Below, piece by piece: positions 4,937 to 58,204 of a stretch of DNA of 64,000 nucleotides. The DNA comes from Acidimicrobiales bacterium (lineage in GTDB: Bacteria > Actinomycetota > Acidimicrobiia > Acidimicrobiales > SHLQ01), in the NCBI GenBank assembly GCA_020629635.1, contig JAHDCX010000011.1, positions 1 through 64,000 on the forward strand. Reading direction: 5' to 3'. Every line of letters begins with the position of its first letter. Position 1 is the first letter of the stretch. The position numbers were made by a program, and so were the translations under genes. Below the pieces are notes generated by a model, which searched no databases, was not told where the DNA came from, and was given only the letters and a program-made list of their open reading frames with translations.

Positions 4937-6193
4937 ATGCGTCTCGACTTCGAACCCGCTCAGGTCCGCGTCCTCGGCTCGCTCATCGAGAAGGAGTCCA
5001 CCACCCCGGACCAGTACCCGCTCAGCACCAACGCGCTCCGCAGTGCGTGCAATCAGAAGACGAGCCGCGACCCGGTGATGGACCTCGCCGAACGTGACGT
5101 CGATGCCGCTGTGCTGGCACTGCGCGAACGTGGCCTCGTTCGATCATCCAAGCCCACCGGGTCGAGGGCCTGGAAGCACCGGCACGTGATCGATGAGACC
5201 CTTCCGCTTCCACCAGACCAGCGCGCGGTCCTGGCCGTCTTGATGCTTCGAGGGCGCCAGACGCCGGGCGAACTCCGGACGCGTACCGAACGCCTGCACC
5301 CCTTCGAATCGCTCGACGACGTCGAAGCGGCCCTCGCCGGCCTCCGGTCACACGAGCCGAGCCTCGTCCACAACCTCGGCCGGTCGACTGGCCAGAGCCA
5401 GGATCGTTGGGAACACCTGCTCTCGAGCGAGGCCGAAACGCCCGAGAGCCGCGCGCGCCGGGCGACCACGAATCGATTTGCCGAACTCCACACCGCCGGC
5501 ATGTTTGTGATGCCCAATGCATGGGACCGCGGATCGCTGCGCACCTTGGTCGAGATGGGTTTCCCGGCTGTTGCGACCACCTCGGCTGGCTACGGTCGCG
5601 TGATCGGCAAGGACGACCAGGAAGTCACGAGGGACGAACTCGTGGCTCACGTCGAGGACCTCGCCCGCTTCTCGACCGTGCCGATCAACGTCGATTCGGA
5701 ACGTCTGTACCCGGACGACCCCGGCGGCGTGACTCGATGCGTCGAACTTCTCGCGTCCGCCGGCGCCGCCGGTTGCAGTGTCGAGGACTGGAATCCGGCG
5801 ACCGAGGCGGTCGATTCGATCGACCGAGCGACCGACGCCGTCCAGGAGGCCGTGGCCGCGTGCAAGGACGCCGGACTCGTGCTCACCGCCCGCGCCGAGA
5901 ATCACCTCTACGGCATCGACGACCTCGACGACACGGTCGCGCGGCTCCGGTCGTTCGAGACCGCTGGGGCCGACGTCGTCTATGCACCGGGTCTCCGGGC
6001 CGTCGAGGAGATCGAGTTGGTGCTCTCCGAAGTGTCGGTGCCACTGAACGTTCTCGGCATCGCCGGCACGCCAGACGTCGAGACGCTCCGATCCCTGGGG
6101 GTTGGCCGAGTGTCGACGGGCTCGCTCCTTCACTCCGCCGCCATGGCGGCGGCACGAGAGACCGCAGAGAGGTTTCGACCGTCGAGCCTCTAG
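4937..6193 (+). CDS. Fusion of YceH-like (DUF480) and PEP-mutase/isocitrate-lyase-like domains
   Basis: One 418-residue frame. Residues 1 to about 160 are a full YceH/DUF480 tandem winged-helix domain (AQVRVLGSLIEKESTTPDQY, LNALRSACNQK-type region, ending DRWEHLL). Residues about 170-418 are a PEP mutase/isocitrate lyase superfamily barrel: FVMPNAWDRGSLRTL, AVATTSAGYG, SVEDWNP, TARAENHLYG and NVLGIAGTP. The barrel's usual N-terminus (RFAELHTAGMFVMPNAWD) has no start codon of its own in the linker, so this is a real translational fusion rather than two genes. Such barrels cleave or form C-C or C-P bonds of oxo-acids. The stop codon shares CTAG with the convergent gene. Confidence 0.85.
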   Translation: MRLDFEPAQVRVLGSLIEKESTTPDQYPLSTNALRSACNQKTSRDPVMDLAERDVDAAVLALRERGLVRSSKPTGSRAWKHRHVIDETLPLPPDQRAVLAVLMLRGRQTPGELRTRTERLHPFESLDDVEAALAGLRSHEPSLVHNLGRSTGQSQDRWEHLLSSEAETPESRARRATTNRFAELHTAGMFVMPNAWDRGSLRTLVEMGFPAVATTSAGYGRVIGKDDQEVTRDELVAHVEDLARFSTVPINVDSERLYPDDPGGVTRCVELLASAGAAGCSVEDWNPATEAVDSIDRATDAVQEAVAACKDAGLVLTARAENHLYGIDDLDDTVARLRSFETAGADVVYAPGLRAVEEIELVLSEVSVPLNVLGIAGTPDVETLRSLGVGRVSTGSLLHSAAMAAARETAERFRPSSL

Positions 6194-8937
6194 CGAAGCC
6201 CGGCGTCGATCCCCGCAGCGAGACTCGCGGCGGTGACGAGTTCGGTTCCGCAGAGTTCGACCTCGACCGAGTTCGCTCGACGATCGTCGGTGTTGATCAC
6301 ACTCCAGTGTTCGATACGGACTTTGCCAGTCACCGGCGCCGTCACTCGCAACGTGCCCAGGCCTTCAGGCGTAGGCCCGAATCGCTCGTCACCGATCACG
6401 ACGTACACCTGCTCATGGGGCTGCTGAGGCGACTCGCCCGGCTCGGTCGTCGTGACCACGAGCTCGGATCCCGCCATGGCAACCAGACCGGTGTCCCAGA
6501 CGGTTTCGCCACCACGGAACAGGCGTGGCCCCGCAATCACGGCCGGGCAGGTGTGCACGACGGGAATCGACAGCTCCGAGCCGCACCAGGCGAACTCGAC
6601 AGAGTTGGCTCGTCGATCATCGGGGTGGTGAATCGACCAGTGCTCGAAGCTGACCGGACCACCGGCCTCGACGACGAACTCCAGCTCGCCGAGTCCGACC
6701 GGCGTCGGGCCGTAACGGGTCTCGCCGACGACCACGTACAGCTGTTCATGCGGCTGGTCCGGTGAGTCCCCGGGCTCGGAGGTCACGACCCGAATCGTCG
6801 AGCCTGGCTCGGCATCGAGACCCGTGACGTGACGGGTCGTCCCGTAACGGTTGAGGCGCGGACCCGACAGCGTTGCGTCACAGACCGGGCCCTCGGGCAG
6901 GCCGACGTAGTGCGAGGGATCCGAATCCTCCACCATCTCGTCGGTGGGGAGCCCCGACTCGTCGAGCACGACGGCCGACACCGATCCGACATTGGCGTGA
7001 GGTCCGACGACGGCGATCGAGCGGAAGGCACACACGGTCGACTCGTCCACAGCGAGGAAGCCGATCTGGCAGACGAAACCGAGCACGTCGTCGGTGACTC
7101 GGAGCGTCATGAGGTCCGTGTTGCCCGTGTTCGTGATCTCGAAGGCCCATTCGACGGAGGCACCCTCGAGAATCTCGGGACCGGGAGCGACGTCGGCGTC
7201 GACACCATTCGTCGACTTCTCGATCTGGATGGACGGCTCCGCAACGAACGTCACGACGCCTCGATGGTGGCTGGGGTCGGAGGCCTCGATCGGCGCGCCG
7301 ATGGCGGCGCCGACGTCGTCGACGGGCTGCGCACGCACCGTGCCGACATTGCGGTAGTTGCCGGGGGCGACCACGCCGGTTGCCCGACACGTCACCGACT
7401 GATTGGGCGCGAGTCGGTCGACCGGACAGGTCACGGCGCCGAGCACCGAGTCGTCCAGTTCGACGCCGGCAAGTGTCACGTTGCCGGTGTTCGTGATCAC
7501 GTAGGAGAACTCGACGTCTTCGCCGACCTCGAGGTCGGGTCCGGGCGCCGTGTCCGCGTCGACGCCGTTGGTCGCCTTCTCGAGAGAGACGCCCGGCGCT
7601 GCGACGAATCGGATGAGACCAACGTCGAGGTCGAAGCGAGCGTCGCCGGGCTCGAGCGTTACCGTCGACGTGAGACCCGTGTCGGGATTGACGTCGCTGT
7701 CGCGCGAGTCGTCGACACCGACGTCTTGTGGCGAGAAGGTCGAGTTGCGAGGCGCCTGGACCTCGATCGCCCAGTCCCCCGGGGCGACGGTGAAGCTGTA
7801 GAGGCCGGACGGATCGGTGAGCGTGACGGCCCGAGTGATCCGGTCTGCATCGACGAGGCGGACCGTGACTCCAGCCAGGCCGACTTCGCCGTCGTCCTGA
7901 AGGCCGTTGCTGTTGACGTCGTCGAAGACCCGGTCGCCGAGTTCGGCCTCGAGGACGACTGGGACGGTTTGGGCAACGGTGACGAGCGTGTCTTCGCCGA
8001 CGGCGTCGGCGATCGAACCGGCGAAGACGTTGACGCCGAAGTCGAGCGAGGTGTCACCGTCGAGAAGTTCGGCGAAGTCGGTGATGGTGAACACGAGGTC
8101 GGGGTTTGCTGCATCCGGCGACGGAGAGCGCGCGCCGATCTGGTCGACGGGGTCGCCCCAGAAGACGGCTGCCTGCGGACCGAACTGGTGGCCGGGCAGT
8201 GCCTCGGCGAGCCGGAACGAGGACCAGTCATCGTCGGCTGGAACGCCGGCGAGGAAATCCGCGGTGCCGTCCTGATCGATGTCGAGCAGCAGGACGACAG
8301 CCTCGCCAAGCCCGACGTCTGCCGGGTCATCGCCGGCCTCGGTGTTGGCGGGCCCCCACGACGCGGGGTCGCCGTCGGCGTCGGCGTCGCCGAGTAGGCC
8401 GAACACGTTCACCCCGATGATCAGGGTGTCCGTCTCGACGTCGTAGCGGAATCGAAGGTCCTTGATGTCCCATCCCGAGACCTCGCCGTTCGGGGCGATG
8501 ATGCTCGGCTGAATTCGGCCATCGACGAGGTCGGGGATCCGGACGACGCCGGACTCGGCCCGAGGCAGGACGGCTTCGGCATCACCGGAAATCGACGAGG
8601 CCTGAAGACTGGCGACGGATACGGCACCGACAACGGTCGCGTCGGCGCGATCGGCGACGTCGGTCTCCTCGGACGCGGGCGTCGCGGCTGAGCCTTCGAC
8701 GCCCGCAGATCGACCGATGTCGGTGTCGGAACCGTCGCTGTCAGGCGAGGTTTCGACCGCACCGGCGACCTCGACCGTGATCGCGGCCGCGTCGTCGCTC
8801 GCGGAGCCGGTCGTGGAGGTCGACGATTCGTTGCCGAGTCCGAAGACGAGCAACGCCAGGGCGGCCACGCCCAACAGCAGGATTGCCGCCGTGCGAAGTC
8901 GCACCGAGCGGGTCACATTCTCGATCGTGGTCATCAC
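6190..8937 (-). CDS. Large surface protein with SdrD-B-like and DUF11-like repeats
   Basis: A 915-residue exported protein. Residues 15-37 (LRTAAILLLGVAALALLVFG) form a signal anchor, followed by an acidic low-complexity stretch. A long N-terminal region ends before an SdrD B-like Cna repeat (LGDRVFDDVNSNGLQDDGEV). Two DUF11-like modules follow, each starting KxTNGVDADxAPGP, then a tandem pair of about 110-residue C-terminal modules (PDQPHEQLYVVVG / PQQPHEQVYVVIG, each ending DDRRANSVE). No LPXTG or C-terminal membrane anchor is visible. It is probably attached by its N-terminus or secreted. The stop overlaps that of the YceH fusion gene. Confidence 0.8.
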   Translation of the reverse strand: MMTTIENVTRSVRLRTAAILLLGVAALALLVFGLGNESSTSTTGSASDDAAAITVEVAGAVETSPDSDGSDTDIGRSAGVEGSAATPASEETDVADRADATVVGAVSVASLQASSISGDAEAVLPRAESGVVRIPDLVDGRIQPSIIAPNGEVSGWDIKDLRFRYDVETDTLIIGVNVFGLLGDADADGDPASWGPANTEAGDDPADVGLGEAVVLLLDIDQDGTADFLAGVPADDDWSSFRLAEALPGHQFGPQAAVFWGDPVDQIGARSPSPDAANPDLVFTITDFAELLDGDTSLDFGVNVFAGSIADAVGEDTLVTVAQTVPVVLEAELGDRVFDDVNSNGLQDDGEVGLAGVTVRLVDADRITRAVTLTDPSGLYSFTVAPGDWAIEVQAPRNSTFSPQDVGVDDSRDSDVNPDTGLTSTVTLEPGDARFDLDVGLIRFVAAPGVSLEKATNGVDADTAPGPDLEVGEDVEFSYVITNTGNVTLAGVELDDSVLGAVTCPVDRLAPNQSVTCRATGVVAPGNYRNVGTVRAQPVDDVGAAIGAPIEASDPSHHRGVVTFVAEPSIQIEKSTNGVDADVAPGPEILEGASVEWAFEITNTGNTDLMTLRVTDDVLGFVCQIGFLAVDESTVCAFRSIAVVGPHANVGSVSAVVLDESGLPTDEMVEDSDPSHYVGLPEGPVCDATLSGPRLNRYGTTRHVTGLDAEPGSTIRVVTSEPGDSPDQPHEQLYVVVGETRYGPTPVGLGELEFVVEAGGPVSFEHWSIHHPDDRRANSVEFAWCGSELSIPVVHTCPAVIAGPRLFRGGETVWDTGLVAMAGSELVVTTTEPGESPQQPHEQVYVVIGDERFGPTPEGLGTLRVTAPVTGKVRIEHWSVINTDDRRANSVEVELCGTELVTAASLAAGIDAGLR

Positions 8938-9061
8938 AACGCTCCCTGTGGCTCTTCAGGCCATCGGGGGCCAATCGGCCGAGATCCCGAGGAGATGAGT
9001 CGTTTGGCCCATGAGCCGATCGCGAGCGGAGCCGCTTCGGCCCACGCCCTAAGGTGAGGCC

Positions 9062-9682
9062 ATGGCCCCCGTCCGAGTGACCCTCTGGTCCGACTTCCTT
9101 TGACCATGGTGTTGGGTCGCGGCGGTCCGCCTCGACGAACTCCGCGAACGGATCGGTGATCGAATCGAGATCGAACGACGCAGCTTCCTGTTGCGGGTCG
9201 AGCCCAAGACGGGTGACCACGAACGATTCGTCGCATACACCGAGTCCTGGTTGACCCCAGCCGCCCAAGAGCCCCGTGCGCCGTTTCGGGTGTGGTCGTC
9301 GGACGAACGCCAACCGGCATCGAGCATTCCTGCCCAAGTGGCGTTTCGGCTCGTTTCTTCCGCGTGGCCGGATCACGCCGAGGCCTATCACCACGCGTTG
9401 ATGACGGCGTACTTCGTCGACAACCGCAACATCGCTGACGCGGAGAATCTGATCGACATCGCCGAGTCGGTCGGCGTGCCGGGGGACGAGCTCCGTGAGC
9501 TGGCCGCCGCCGAGACCGAGGCGACGACACAACTCGTCATCGACGACCACAACTCGGCGATCGAGTCCGGAGTCACCGCCGTCCCGACAATCGTGCTCGA
9601 CGATGCCGTCGCAGTCCCTGGCGCGCAACCGGTGGAGACCTGGGAGCGATTGATCACACGAATCGAGTCCGCTCGGGCATGA
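9062..9682 (+). CDS. DsbA/FrnE-like thiol oxidoreductase, candidate selenoprotein (TGA = Sec14)
   Basis: Reading from ATG 9062, which has a strong AAGGTGAGG ribosome-binding site a few bases upstream, gives MAPVRVTLWSDFL, then TGA (9101-9103), then PWCWVAAVRLDELRERIGDR and on without break to 9682. Homologous DsbA/FrnE proteins have CPWC exactly here, so the TGA replaces the first active-site Cys and yields UPWC. The cis-Pro loop (SGVTAVPTIVLDD) is intact near the C-terminus. A hairpin at 9116-9136 fits a bacterial SECIS. Starting after the TGA, as an automatic caller would, removes the redox motif. The protein has 206 residues with no signal peptide. Alternative: a nonsense mutation, but frame and motif conservation argue against it. 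Confidence 0.82.
9116..9136 (+). promoter_or_regulatory. SECIS-like hairpin downstream of TGA at 9101
   Basis: The RNA can fold as GUCG/CGAC (4 bp), one C-U mismatch, GGCG/CGCC (4 bp) and a three-base loop GUC at 9125-9127. Twenty-one bases separate the UGA from the loop, and the loop begins with G. Both match the general bacterial SECIS description (apical loop about 16-37 nt after UGA, G in the first loop positions). The element lies inside the coding sequence, as expected for bacteria. Confidence 0.65.
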
Positions 9683-9712: not shown

Positions 9713-10306
9713 ATGACCTTCTCGTTTCAACCACAGATCATCAAAGGTGACTCCCTCGTCCCCTTCCGCATGGTGGTCGGCGGATGGGCGATCGCGATCC
9801 TGGCCGTTCTCCTCGACGGGCCCGTCGCCAACCGCCTGATCGGCCTCATGGGTCTCACCCTGGTCGCCGGAGCGCTCGCGGCGATCTCGCTCTGGGGCGA
9901 CCGGATGTGGACGATGCTCATCGGTGCCGCAGGTGGTGCGGCCACCGCCTGGCTCGGATTCGACTTTGCGTTCGGCGAGCGCCTTATCCCAGCCCGCAAC
10001 GATGTCGGCGAGCTGCTCGATCGCCCGCACCTCGCGGCACTTGCGGTCGGCCTCGGGGTCTTCGCGATCGGACTCGGCGGCATGCTCGAAGCGATCCGAG
10101 CCCAGACTCAGCCCGGAACGTCGCCGTTCGCGATCCGGATCGTCCTGATTGGGATCGGCATGGCCATCGTCGGCGCGATGTGCGCCCGTGCCGGAGTCTC
10201 GCCAACGATCTCGATTCTCGCCATGCTCGCCACGGCTGCGATCCTCTCCGCGATGGCGTGGTTGCGCCGCGAGCGACCAACGAGCGCCTTCATCCCAACC
10301 CCGTGA
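9713..10306 (+). CDS. Polytopic membrane protein of unknown function
   Basis: A 197-residue hydrophobic protein with about six predicted transmembrane segments (for example MVVGGWAIAILAVLLDG, LIGLMGLTLVAGALAAIS, AALAVGLGVFAIGLGGML, IVLIGIGMAIVGAMCARAG). No family motif was recognised. Its stop overlaps the GTG start of the next gene (GTGA), placing it at the head of the glycosyltransferase cassette, so a role in envelope or polysaccharide assembly is possible but only inferred. Confidence 0.7.
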   Translation: MTFSFQPQIIKGDSLVPFRMVVGGWAIAILAVLLDGPVANRLIGLMGLTLVAGALAAISLWGDRMWTMLIGAAGGAATAWLGFDFAFGERLIPARNDVGELLDRPHLAALAVGLGVFAIGLGGMLEAIRAQTQPGTSPFAIRIVLIGIGMAIVGAMCARAGVSPTISILAMLATAAILSAMAWLRRERPTSAFIPTP

Positions 10307-11403
10307 CCGACATGGCCTCGTGCGCCATCGTTGCGAACGACATCATCCCGGAGCTCGGCGGCCCGGTCGCCGCTCCGGGCCTGCGGGCGTCGGCAATGGC
10401 GGCCGGTCTTCGGGCCAACGGCATCGACGCGCACCTCCTCGTACCGGCCGATGCGGTCGACGCGGCGTGGTCTGGCCGGCTTCCCCCGGCACACGGCGAC
10501 GGATGGACGATCCTCGATCGCTCCGACATCGCCCACCACGTCGCCCGACATGGGCACGATCTCGTGGTGTTGACCGGCCCACACGCCGCATCCACGATCT
10601 CGCCGACGCTCGATGTCCCGTTCGTCTTCGATCACTTCGCGCCAAAGGATCTCGAAGCCGATGCTGCTGGTGCGCCGACGGAACACGTCGAGGAACTCCG
10701 TGCGCACACGGCTCGGATGGCTGCTGCGAGCGCCACGACCTGGGTCAACGGCCAACGCAAGCTCGACGCATTGCAGGCGGAGCTGGAGCGCGACGACATG
10801 GCCGCGTCGCCGATGGTGCTCGTCGAGATGGCGGTCGCCCCGACCGGCGGAATCCCCGAAGACGACTCGCCGCGGCCCCTTCGGGCCGGCGTGGCGGGAT
10901 ACCGACAGGACTGGAGCGAGGGCGGGACTGCGGACGCAGTCAACGCCGCCCTCGATCTCGATTTCGAGGTGGAGGTACTTCAGCCATACCACTGGGCGCA
11001 GGTGACCCGAGCCGATCCAGTCACGCCCGATGAGCGCGTCCGGACCACGACCGGCCCGCTGCCTTGGCGCGCCTTTGGCCGCTGGCTCCATGGGGTCGAC
11101 GTGATGCTCGACGTCTTCCCCCAGACGCAGGAGCGAACCATGGCGATGGTCACGAGGACGGTCGTCGCCCTCGCCCACGGGGTTCCGGTCATCCACGGCG
11201 TCGACAGCGAGTGCGCACCGCTGATCGAGCGCTGGAATGCAGGTTGGCTCCCGCAGAGTCTGATGGAGTGGACCGAAGCGCTCCGCGAATGCGCACAACC
11301 CGAGGTCCTCGCAGAGAAGCGCCTGGGCGCTCGGCAGCTCGCCGACGATCGATTCGACCCTCGCCGGGCCATGGCCGAAGCGGCGCGACAGCTTCTGCCA
11401 TGA
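10303..11403 (+). CDS. Glycosyltransferase-like protein (GT4-type fold)
   Basis: A 366-residue protein that looks like a two-domain GT-B glycosyltransferase. The N-terminal domain opens ASCAIVANDIIPELGGPVAA with GLRASAMAAGLRANGIDAHL. The C-terminal domain has MVTRTVVALAHGVPVIHGVD, the nucleotide-sugar-side region where an active site loop precedes a Glu or Asp. The GTG start at 10303 overlaps the upstream stop by four bases, and the stop overlaps the next ATG (ATGA), so the genes are translationally coupled. Donor and acceptor are unknown. It probably builds a surface glycan together with its neighbours. Confidence 0.72.
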   Translation: MTDMASCAIVANDIIPELGGPVAAPGLRASAMAAGLRANGIDAHLLVPADAVDAAWSGRLPPAHGDGWTILDRSDIAHHVARHGHDLVVLTGPHAASTISPTLDVPFVFDHFAPKDLEADAAGAPTEHVEELRAHTARMAAASATTWVNGQRKLDALQAELERDDMAASPMVLVEMAVAPTGGIPEDDSPRPLRAGVAGYRQDWSEGGTADAVNAALDLDFEVEVLQPYHWAQVTRADPVTPDERVRTTTGPLPWRAFGRWLHGVDVMLDVFPQTQERTMAMVTRTVVALAHGVPVIHGVDSECAPLIERWNAGWLPQSLMEWTEALRECAQPEVLAEKRLGARQLADDRFDPRRAMAEAARQLLP

Positions 11404-12398
11404 ACTCCAACAACACGGCGAACGTACTCCTGCCTTTCTGGGGTCTCGGCGGGGGCGTGCTGAAGCTGATCGATCACGCAGAGCATCTCCTGGAGAGCTT
11501 CGACAATCTCCGCCTGTGGGGTCCGCCGATCCCTTCCGACGACGACCTGGTCTTCACGGTGCCGGCCGTCCAGCGAGTTCTCGACAACGCACGCGTCCGC
11601 GTCGACCCGATCGAGCGCTTCGACCCCGAGCCGACGGACTGGGTGCTGTTCACCGAGCCCGGACATCATCGCCTCGCAGACCGGCCGCGCTCGCCTGCCG
11701 CGGCCAGCCGCCTCATCCAACTCGTCCAGGGCGTGGTCCACGCCGACCCGACCTGGAACGGTGGGCTCCACAGGCGGGTACTCACGCGGCCGGCGTCGCG
11801 GATCTGGATCTCCCCAGCGGTCGAGGCCGCCTGTGCGCCCATCGCCAACCAGCGATGCCCGGCGACGATGATCCTCCAGGGCCACGACGTCGACTTCTTC
11901 GCGGGAGCCCGAGATCGAGCGGGTTCGACACGGATGCGTGTCGGCCATGCGCCGTGGAAGAGCGATCTCGGCGATCGGGTCGCAGAGCGGCTTCGCGACG
12001 ACACCCGCGTCGAGTTCGTCGCAGCTGGGTCGCCGATCGGATGGCCAGCGCTCCGCGACTTCTACCAATCGATCGATGTCTTTCTGGCGACTCCGCTCGC
12101 CGCCGAAGGCTTTCATCTCCCGGGCCTCGAAGCACTCGCAGCGGGGTGTGCCCTGGTCGCCCCCGAGGTGGGAGGCAATTCCTGCTATCTCCGACACGAG
12201 TCGAACGCCCTTGTCGTCGGTCACGAATCCGTGGACGATGCCGTTGCGGCCGTCGAACGGCTCGCAGCGAATCCGGACCTGCGTCGGCGTCTCGCATCGA
12301 CCGGCAAGGCGGATGTCGCGGCACACCGCCTCGAGCGTGAACGCGTCGAATCGGCGGCGTTCATCGCGTCGATCCGAGCCATGAGCTCGCCTGACTAG
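11400..12398 (+). CDS. Glycosyltransferase family 4-like protein
   Basis: A 332-residue GT-B-like protein. VLLPFWGLGGGVLKLIDHAE at the N-terminus resembles the acceptor-side glycine-rich loop. LRDFYQSIDVFLATPLAAEG, FHLPGLEALAAGCALVAPEV and GGNSCY together form the classic GT4 C-terminal signature for nucleotide-sugar binding. ATG 11400 overlaps the previous stop (ATGA). Ten bases separate its stop from the following coiled-coil gene. Confidence 0.8.
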   Translation: MNSNNTANVLLPFWGLGGGVLKLIDHAEHLLESFDNLRLWGPPIPSDDDLVFTVPAVQRVLDNARVRVDPIERFDPEPTDWVLFTEPGHHRLADRPRSPAAASRLIQLVQGVVHADPTWNGGLHRRVLTRPASRIWISPAVEAACAPIANQRCPATMILQGHDVDFFAGARDRAGSTRMRVGHAPWKSDLGDRVAERLRDDTRVEFVAAGSPIGWPALRDFYQSIDVFLATPLAAEGFHLPGLEALAAGCALVAPEVGGNSCYLRHESNALVVGHESVDDAVAAVERLAANPDLRRRLASTGKADVAAHRLERERVESAAFIASIRAMSSPD

Positions 12399-46710: not shown

Positions 46711-47112
46711 ATGGCGCACCCAAAGAACTTCGACGACGACGATCCGATCCTCGCGAAGGTGCGGGAGGTCGCGCTTGCCTTCCCGGAGGCAGCGGAGAAA
46801 GTCAGCCACGGTCGGCCGTGCTTCTTCACGAAGAAGATCTTCTGCATCTACGGCGCCGCGGTGAAGGGCGACGAGTGGGTGCAACATCCACAGTCGATCC
46901 TGGTTCTGCCCGACGAGGACGAACGACATGCCCTCCTCGACGACGAACGTGGATTCGTGCCGGCCTATTGGGGCCCGTACGGCTGGATCGGCATCGACCT
47001 CGACGCCGCAACCGACTGGGACGAGATCGCCGAACTCCTCGAAGACAGCTTCCGAGCCACCGCCCCCAAACGCGCCATCACCACCCTCGACATGGGGTCA
47101 GGTCTGACATAG
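46711..47112 (+). CDS. YjbR/MmcQ-family protein (DUF419)
   Basis: 133 residues: ILAKVREVALAFPEAAEKVS, HGRPCFFTKKIFCIYG, DERGFVPAYWGPYGWIGIDL and LLEDSFRATAPKRA are typical of the YjbR fold (CyaY-like). Proposed to bind DNA; exact function unknown. Its last six residues, MGSGLT, and the stop TAG are supplied by a type B repeat element at 47092. Confidence 0.8.
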   Translation: MAHPKNFDDDDPILAKVREVALAFPEAAEKVSHGRPCFFTKKIFCIYGAAVKGDEWVQHPQSILVLPDEDERHALLDDERGFVPAYWGPYGWIGIDLDAATDWDEIAELLEDSFRATAPKRAITTLDMGSGLT

Positions 47113-47121
47113 CAAGAGGTT
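47092..47121 (+). repeat. Type B repeat, single copy, ends the YjbR gene
   Basis: Starts ATGGGGTCAGGTCTGACA and continues to TAGCAAGAGGTT (30 bp). It contains a GTCAGGTCTGAC inner palindrome and an in-frame TAG that terminates the YjbR-like gene. Same sequence as the arms at 47930, 47992, 57391 and 57446. Confidence 0.78.
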
Positions 47122-47191
47122 CCCGTACCCTTGCAACCAGCCCACGTCACGCTCAGGGGCCCCAACACCGAACCCCCTGAAGGAGACGACC

Positions 47192-47922: not shown

Positions 47923-47929
47923 TCCCACC

Positions 47930-48020
47930 ATGGGGTCAGGTCTGACATAGCAAGAGGTTCATGCTCGTTGGCCACGTTGACCAGCCAGCGCAACCCCTTG
48001 CTATGTCAGACCTGACCCCA
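47930..48020. terminator. Inverted pair of type B repeats, terminator-like
   Basis: Arm 1 at 47930-47959 (ATGGGGTCAGGTCTGACA...), 32-bp loop, arm 2 at 47992-48020 (reverse complement with one mismatch), followed by TTTTT at 48021-48025. The 29-bp stem with T-tract looks like a strong rho-independent terminator. It lies 7 bp after the RNA ligase stop and before the YCII gene. Confidence 0.75.
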
Positions 48021-48109
48021 TTTTTCTTGGGGAGCTGTCGATTTCGGGATTGCTCGCGCGTCAGAGTGGTGTCGGCAACCACGCCGGCACCGATCAAAGG
48101 ATCCGAATC

Positions 48110-57386: not shown

Positions 57387-57390
57387 ACGA

Positions 57391-57475
57391 ATGGGGTCAA
57401 GTCTGACATAGCAAGAGGTTGCGTTGCGCCCACTCCCTTAGGTGGAACCTCTTGCTATGTCAGACTTGACCCCAT
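57391..57475. terminator. Perfect inverted pair of type B repeats, bidirectional-terminator-like
   Basis: Arm 1 at 57391-57420 (ATGGGGTCAAGTCTGACA...), 25-nt loop, arm 2 at 57446-57475, an exact complement over 30 bp. It lies precisely between convergent genes (PLC-like ends 57386, CIA30 gene ends 57476), the place expected for a bidirectional terminator. Confidence 0.8.
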
Positions 57476-58204
57476 TTATGCGCAGGCGTCGATCCAGTGG
57501 ACTTCGAGGCGGAAGGGGCCGTCGATCCCGTCGGCGAGGATGATGCCGACCTCGGTGATCTGGGCGGGGTCGATTGGCGCGTCGTCGACGGGGGTGCCGA
57601 AGAACCGGGGGTCGAAGGTGTCGAGGGCGACCTCGACCTCCTGCCAGTCTCCGGCACCAGCGAGCGGGATGGCACCGAAGTGGTTGACCCGCCGATCCCG
57701 CCCGTCGACCGCGTCGTCGATGATGAACTCGTACGAGCGCTCGTCGCTTCGGGCGGCGATTCGGAGCGTGCTCGCTGACGACAGGTCGACGTCGGTCATG
57801 ACGCCACGGATCGACGAGAAACCCCCGCCGTTCGTGTTGATCAGGCCTTCGTAGAGGAGGCGCCCGTCGACGATGCCCGCCACCCCGTCGGACAGGCCAC
57901 CCATCACGCCGTCGTTCACGATCCGCCAATGCGTTGCGGTCTCGTCGAGCGAGAAGTCGGCAATACGGATGCAACCCGGTGCCGGTGGAGCCACGGTCGA
58001 CGATGCTGTGGTCGTGGAGGTTCGTTCCGGGACGGTCGTCGTTGCTGCCTCTGTCACCGTCGTGGTGGTGGCCGGCTCAGTTGTCGTGCTTGAGGTCGAT
58101 GGAATCGTTGAGGATGCCGCGCTCTCCTCCGCGACGGCAGGCAGCTCGGCCCCGGATGCGCAACCGGACGCCACAACGACAAGGGCGAGCAGGAGTCGGC
58201 GCAT
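57476..58204 (-). CDS. Lipoprotein with CIA30/NDUFAF1-like domain
   Basis: 242 residues: MRRLLLALVVVASGCASGAE has the lipobox with Cys about residue 15, then a Thr/Ser-rich linker (TSSTTTEPATTTTV) to residue 75. The rest is a galactose-binding-like CIA30 domain (WRIVNDGVMGGLSDGVAGIV, GGGFSSIRGVM, DRRVNHFGAIPLAGAGDWQE, GIILADGIDGPFRLEVHWID). Mitochondrial CIA30 assists complex I; bacterial lipoproteins with this fold likely bind sugars. The stop TAA abuts the type B repeat. Confidence 0.78.
   Translation of the reverse strand: MRRLLLALVVVASGCASGAELPAVAEESAASSTIPSTSSTTTEPATTTTVTEAATTTVPERTSTTTASSTVAPPAPGCIRIADFSLDETATHWRIVNDGVMGGLSDGVAGIVDGRLLYEGLINTNGGGFSSIRGVMTDVDLSSASTLRIAARSDERSYEFIIDDAVDGRDRRVNHFGAIPLAGAGDWQEVEVALDTFDPRFFGTPVDDAPIDPAQITEVGIILADGIDGPFRLEVHWIDACA

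Follow-up and report, generated by a model that had tools for sequence, protein, structure and literature searches.

We identified a gene in an Acidimicrobiales genome that almost certainly reads through an in-frame TGA, which, judging from sequence comparison, would place selenocysteine (Sec) in the active site of a DsbA/FrnE-type enzyme. The gene occupies positions 9062-9682 on the forward strand of the window, the 64,000-nucleotide stretch of DNA analysed here, and is predicted to encode 206 aa plus a stop, with Sec at residue 14 of a UPWC active site. Read-through to Sec is favoured because the relatives of this gene share the TGA and because the genome carries the complete machinery for Sec decoding. 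An earlier note on this DNA had proposed a selenoprotein at this locus, and both the Sec machinery and the occurrence of either TGA or Cys at residue 14 among homologues argue for that proposal.

The start and stop signals of the gene can be read from the sequence itself. A Shine-Dalgarno-like AAGGTGAGG (9051-9059, forward strand) lies just 5' of the ATG at 9062-9064, and an in-frame TAA at 9050-9052 stands upstream of this start codon. From the ATG, the frame contains a single internal stop, the TGA of codon 14 (9101-9103), and is otherwise open to the TGA that ends the gene at 9680-9682, just as the earlier note had described in pointing to a ribosome-binding site, an ATG, and an unbroken frame. 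With TGA translated as U, the product is a 206-aa protein beginning MAPVRVTLWSDFLUPWCW..., in which the putative resolving residue, Cys17, is encoded by the TGT at 9110-9112. Under translation table 11, with no read-through, the frame breaks off at codon 14 and the longest in-frame ORF is one of 163 aa beginning at TTG 9191, so that the active site is missing from its product. As the earlier note had suspected, standard annotation would be expected to remove the active site, and the gene would consequently be listed as a DsbA-like protein in truncated form. Scanning the window for other frames with UxxC, CxxU, TxxU, or UxxS/T returned many matches; on visual inspection of their flanking residues, only the one at 9101 stood out as a redox active site.

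The assignment to the DsbA/FrnE-like proteins, also first made in the earlier note, is backed by profile, sequence, and structural comparisons. The Pfam family DSBA (PF01323) matches residues 6-197, spanning the TGA, with an E-value of 9.9e-24 and 84.6 bits against a gathering score of 25.6, while a search of the protein against NCBIfam gave weak thioredoxin matches only, all below cut-off. Among PDB sequences, SCO1869 of Streptomyces coelicolor (PDB 3GL5) was the best match, at 3.3e-16, followed by Deinococcus FrnE at about 6e-12. SCO1869 has CPWC at the same site and differs in being the Cys form, with 28% identity to the window protein over the structural alignment. An AlphaFold2 model computed from six sequences (mean pLDDT 92, pTM 0.89) has a strand at residues 4-10 and then a helix at 15-34, residue 15 being the helix start according to DSSP, and U14-P-W-C17 is therefore predicted to lie at the start of this helix. 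When the model was used as a Foldseek query, FrnE structures ranked first (TMq 0.82) and SCO1869 sixth; a thioredoxin fold that has a helical insert, and its active site where helix 1 begins, was thus found in both the predicted model and the fold search. The best structural match is FrnE of Deinococcus radiodurans (PDB 5CNW, 5CO3, and related entries), with about 23% identity. The FrnE group corresponds to COG2761. Compared with D. radiodurans FrnE, a Cys enzyme with a further Cys pair, the window protein is shorter and lacks any Cys after position 17.

Several features of the protein bear on its active site and location. Cys17 is the sole Cys of the window protein and the sole Cys common to all 19 full-length members of the family set described below, and residues 4-26 are strongly conserved. 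Moreover, Pro175 in a VTAVP loop is invariant in an alignment (A2), making this loop a candidate cis-Pro loop facing the active site. As the chain begins directly at strand 1, no signal peptide is evident, and from this start we place the protein, probably, in the cytoplasm.

Our survey of homologues covered 59 related genomes, 19 of which, including that of the window, have a full-length gene. The 18 other full-length homologues, from 18 genomes, share 36-60% identity with the window protein, and in all 19 members the single internal stop is a TGA at the same codon, within UPWC. A twentieth and more distant homologue (L051), truncated where its contig ends, shows UPWC as well. The nearest homologues outside the Sec set, four CPWC proteins from Myxococcota and proteobacterial bins (L018-L021), are the closest non-Sec sequences found; they have 36-40% identity and similar length, but differ in carrying TGC or TGT at the Sec codon and in that folding their sequence does not show the eight-position stem described below. 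At residue 14, homologues carry either TGA or Cys, the TGA standing, as had been claimed, where DsbA/FrnE homologues have the leading Cys of CPWC. A tree places the 19 Sec sequences to one side of a branch; their separation from the four closest Cys sequences is, however, weakly supported (41/78), so that a single origin lacks firm support. A search of viral contigs for relatives found none.

The host genome (4.45 Mb, 96.5% complete) contains each of the four genes, selA, selB, selC, and selD, that the earlier note had named as a check. Specifically, one tRNA-Sec (selC) scores above the Rfam cut-off, at 65.1 bits, and is called by ARAGORN as tRNA-SeC with anticodon TCA; contig C28 carries selA (394.5 bits) and selB (280.8 bits) side by side, and the contig of the window also holds selD (362.7 bits), all three exceeding curated cut-offs. 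With all four present, the Sec-decoding trait is complete in this genome. We also observed that selD (L078; C13:133404-134318 of the same genome, reverse strand) is itself a selenoprotein gene, with a TGA in HGAG-U-GCKLDP. Across the survey, all but one of the 20 genomes with UPWC genes have selA over the cut-off, the exception being 73% complete, as do 24 of the 39 genomes without such a gene.

Downstream of the UGA lies a SECIS-like hairpin (9116-9136, forward strand), with a stem formed by 9116-9123 and 9129-9136, paired at seven of its eight positions in the window, and a loop, GGTCC (9124-9128), that starts 21 nt past the UGA with a G, as the earlier note had seen. The second and third loop bases, GU (9125-9126), are invariant across the 19 sequences. 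The loop of the E. coli fdhF SECIS also contains GU, nearly as far from the UGA as here. Across these 19 sequences, with eight stem positions and a five-base loop, 92.8% of cells are paired, as against 32-44% in slid controls, in which the stem partner was shifted by one to three columns; compensatory changes occur in two stem pairs, these being the only two that covary, among sequences that are related.

Since the stem lies within codons for conserved residues, constraint on the protein was considered as a source of this pattern. Codons 19 (GTC) and 24 (CTC) are identical in every comparable pair, for which codon usage predicts 0.36 and 0.32, and along the gene synonymous identity most exceeds expectation in the twelve-codon windows that start at codons 16-21, the stretch holding the hairpin. 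When codons 19-25 were resampled synonymously, the mean folding z was -1.94 for the Sec genes and -0.50 for the Cys homologues. Set against dinucleotide shuffles, the window hairpin alone has no extra stability (z -0.49), the hairpin folds weakly in four of the 19 sequences (L025, L027, L035, and L038), and an Rfam search of the window returned no match. The support for the hairpin thus comes from comparison of sequences across relatives and not from single-sequence stability.

These observations also bear on other explanations of the TGA. It might be a nonsense mutation in a decaying pseudogene of a CPWC protein, in keeping with a frame that, under table 11, ends at codon 14; yet 18 other full-length genes, with protein identity as low as 36%, hold a fixed TGA at the same codon and no other stop, so that a TGA retained across genera in an otherwise intact frame is what was found. 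Given in addition the conserved frame 3' of the TGA and the full Sec machinery of the genome, decay is exceedingly improbable. A second possibility is that near-cognate read-through or a variant code inserts Trp or some other amino acid at the TGA instead of Sec, and an open frame by itself indeed shows nothing beyond read-through. The same gene, however, terminates at a TGA, its homologues have the active-site Cys at the position in question, a tRNA-Sec with anticodon TCA and SelB are present in the genome, and a conserved hairpin follows the TGA, all of which make such decoding very improbable.

Translation might instead begin 3' of the TGA, at TTG 9191, leaving the upstream part as a leader or relic. 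By standard rules this is the longest in-frame ORF, but its product would lose strand 1, helix 1, and the active site, whereas the fold is predicted confidently from residue 4 and residues 4-26 are under strong conservation; we regard the chance that this is the true start as negligible.

We hold with very high confidence the full reading, namely SelB-dependent insertion of Sec14 by way of the hairpin, yielding a UPWC oxidoreductase of the DsbA/FrnE type with a Sec14-Cys17 pair. Building on the frame, the homology, the conserved TGA and hairpin, the decoding machinery, and the predicted fold, we infer the Sec insertion, localisation, and catalysis as follows. SelB and Sec-tRNA would bind the hairpin at 9116-9136 just 3' of the UGA, and Sec would be inserted as residue 14, placing UPWC at the N-terminus of helix 1 in the thioredoxin fold. 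Sec14 would then act as the attacking residue and Cys17 as the resolving residue, and the enzyme may cycle through a Sec-Cys selenenylsulfide while partner thiols are reduced, oxidised, or isomerised. In none of the 19 full-length members, drawn from 19 genomes of a single order, was Sec, the putative attacking residue, seen replaced by Cys. One tentative idea, which we think unlikely, is that these proteins are a cytoplasmic clade of FrnE-type selenoenzymes whose task in these bacteria could not be performed with Cys.

The observation is real and well supported, and it concerns a known kind of selenoprotein. Previous studies have described, in 2005, nine UxxC DsbA-like selenoprotein sequences of COG2761 from the Sargasso Sea (PMC1088965), four DsbA-like selenoprotein genes in a 2006 genome survey (PMC1794560), and, in the GOS data of 2008, DsbA 1 (63 sequences, UxxC) together with DsbA 2 and 3 (PMC2398784). 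A 2016 study counted 45 DsbA-like selenoprotein genes in 41 bacterial organisms (PMC5029168), and a 2026 review lists a DsbA-like protein form 1 (PF01323, UxxC) (PMC13188914). The statement that UxxC DsbA-like selenoproteins occur in bacteria thus agrees with a family known since 2005 (PMC1088965, PMC2398784, PMC5029168, PMC13188914). The published proteins share with the window gene the DSBA domain, UxxC, and a SECIS-like hairpin after the UGA, and in both cases Cys homologues are widespread; the members found here, likened to them by description, differ in forming a set within one order. Literature searches on selenocysteine in Acidimicrobi- taxa and on selenoproteins in Ilumatobacter turned up nothing on the window protein.

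Directly 3' of the selenoprotein gene is a gene for a predicted membrane protein (9713-10306, forward strand; 197 aa, no Pfam match), a neighbour kept in ten same-genus loci with the selenoprotein gene, the window included, and not in the other nine. The neighbourhood was set aside as a functional clue, this downstream protein having no Pfam match and not being conserved in nine loci. A glycosyltransferase group 1 gene (11361-12395, forward strand) lies two genes downstream, and divergent from the selenoprotein gene is a large gene (6190-8937, reverse strand) whose product has SdrD_B and DUF7507 domains and is probably a cell-surface protein. Elsewhere in the window, a repeat of about 30 nt, ATGGGGTCA[AG]GTCTGACATAGCAAGAGGTT, occurs at 47091-47122, 47929-48023, and 57390-57477, as two inverted pairs with 25-32 nt between arms plus one single arm; it resembles REP elements linked to REP-associated transposases.

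More generally, the key residue of a predicted redox enzyme would depend on selenium in these genomes. The family described here adds a well-supported set of selenoproteins, while leaving the general picture of bacterial selenium use unchanged.
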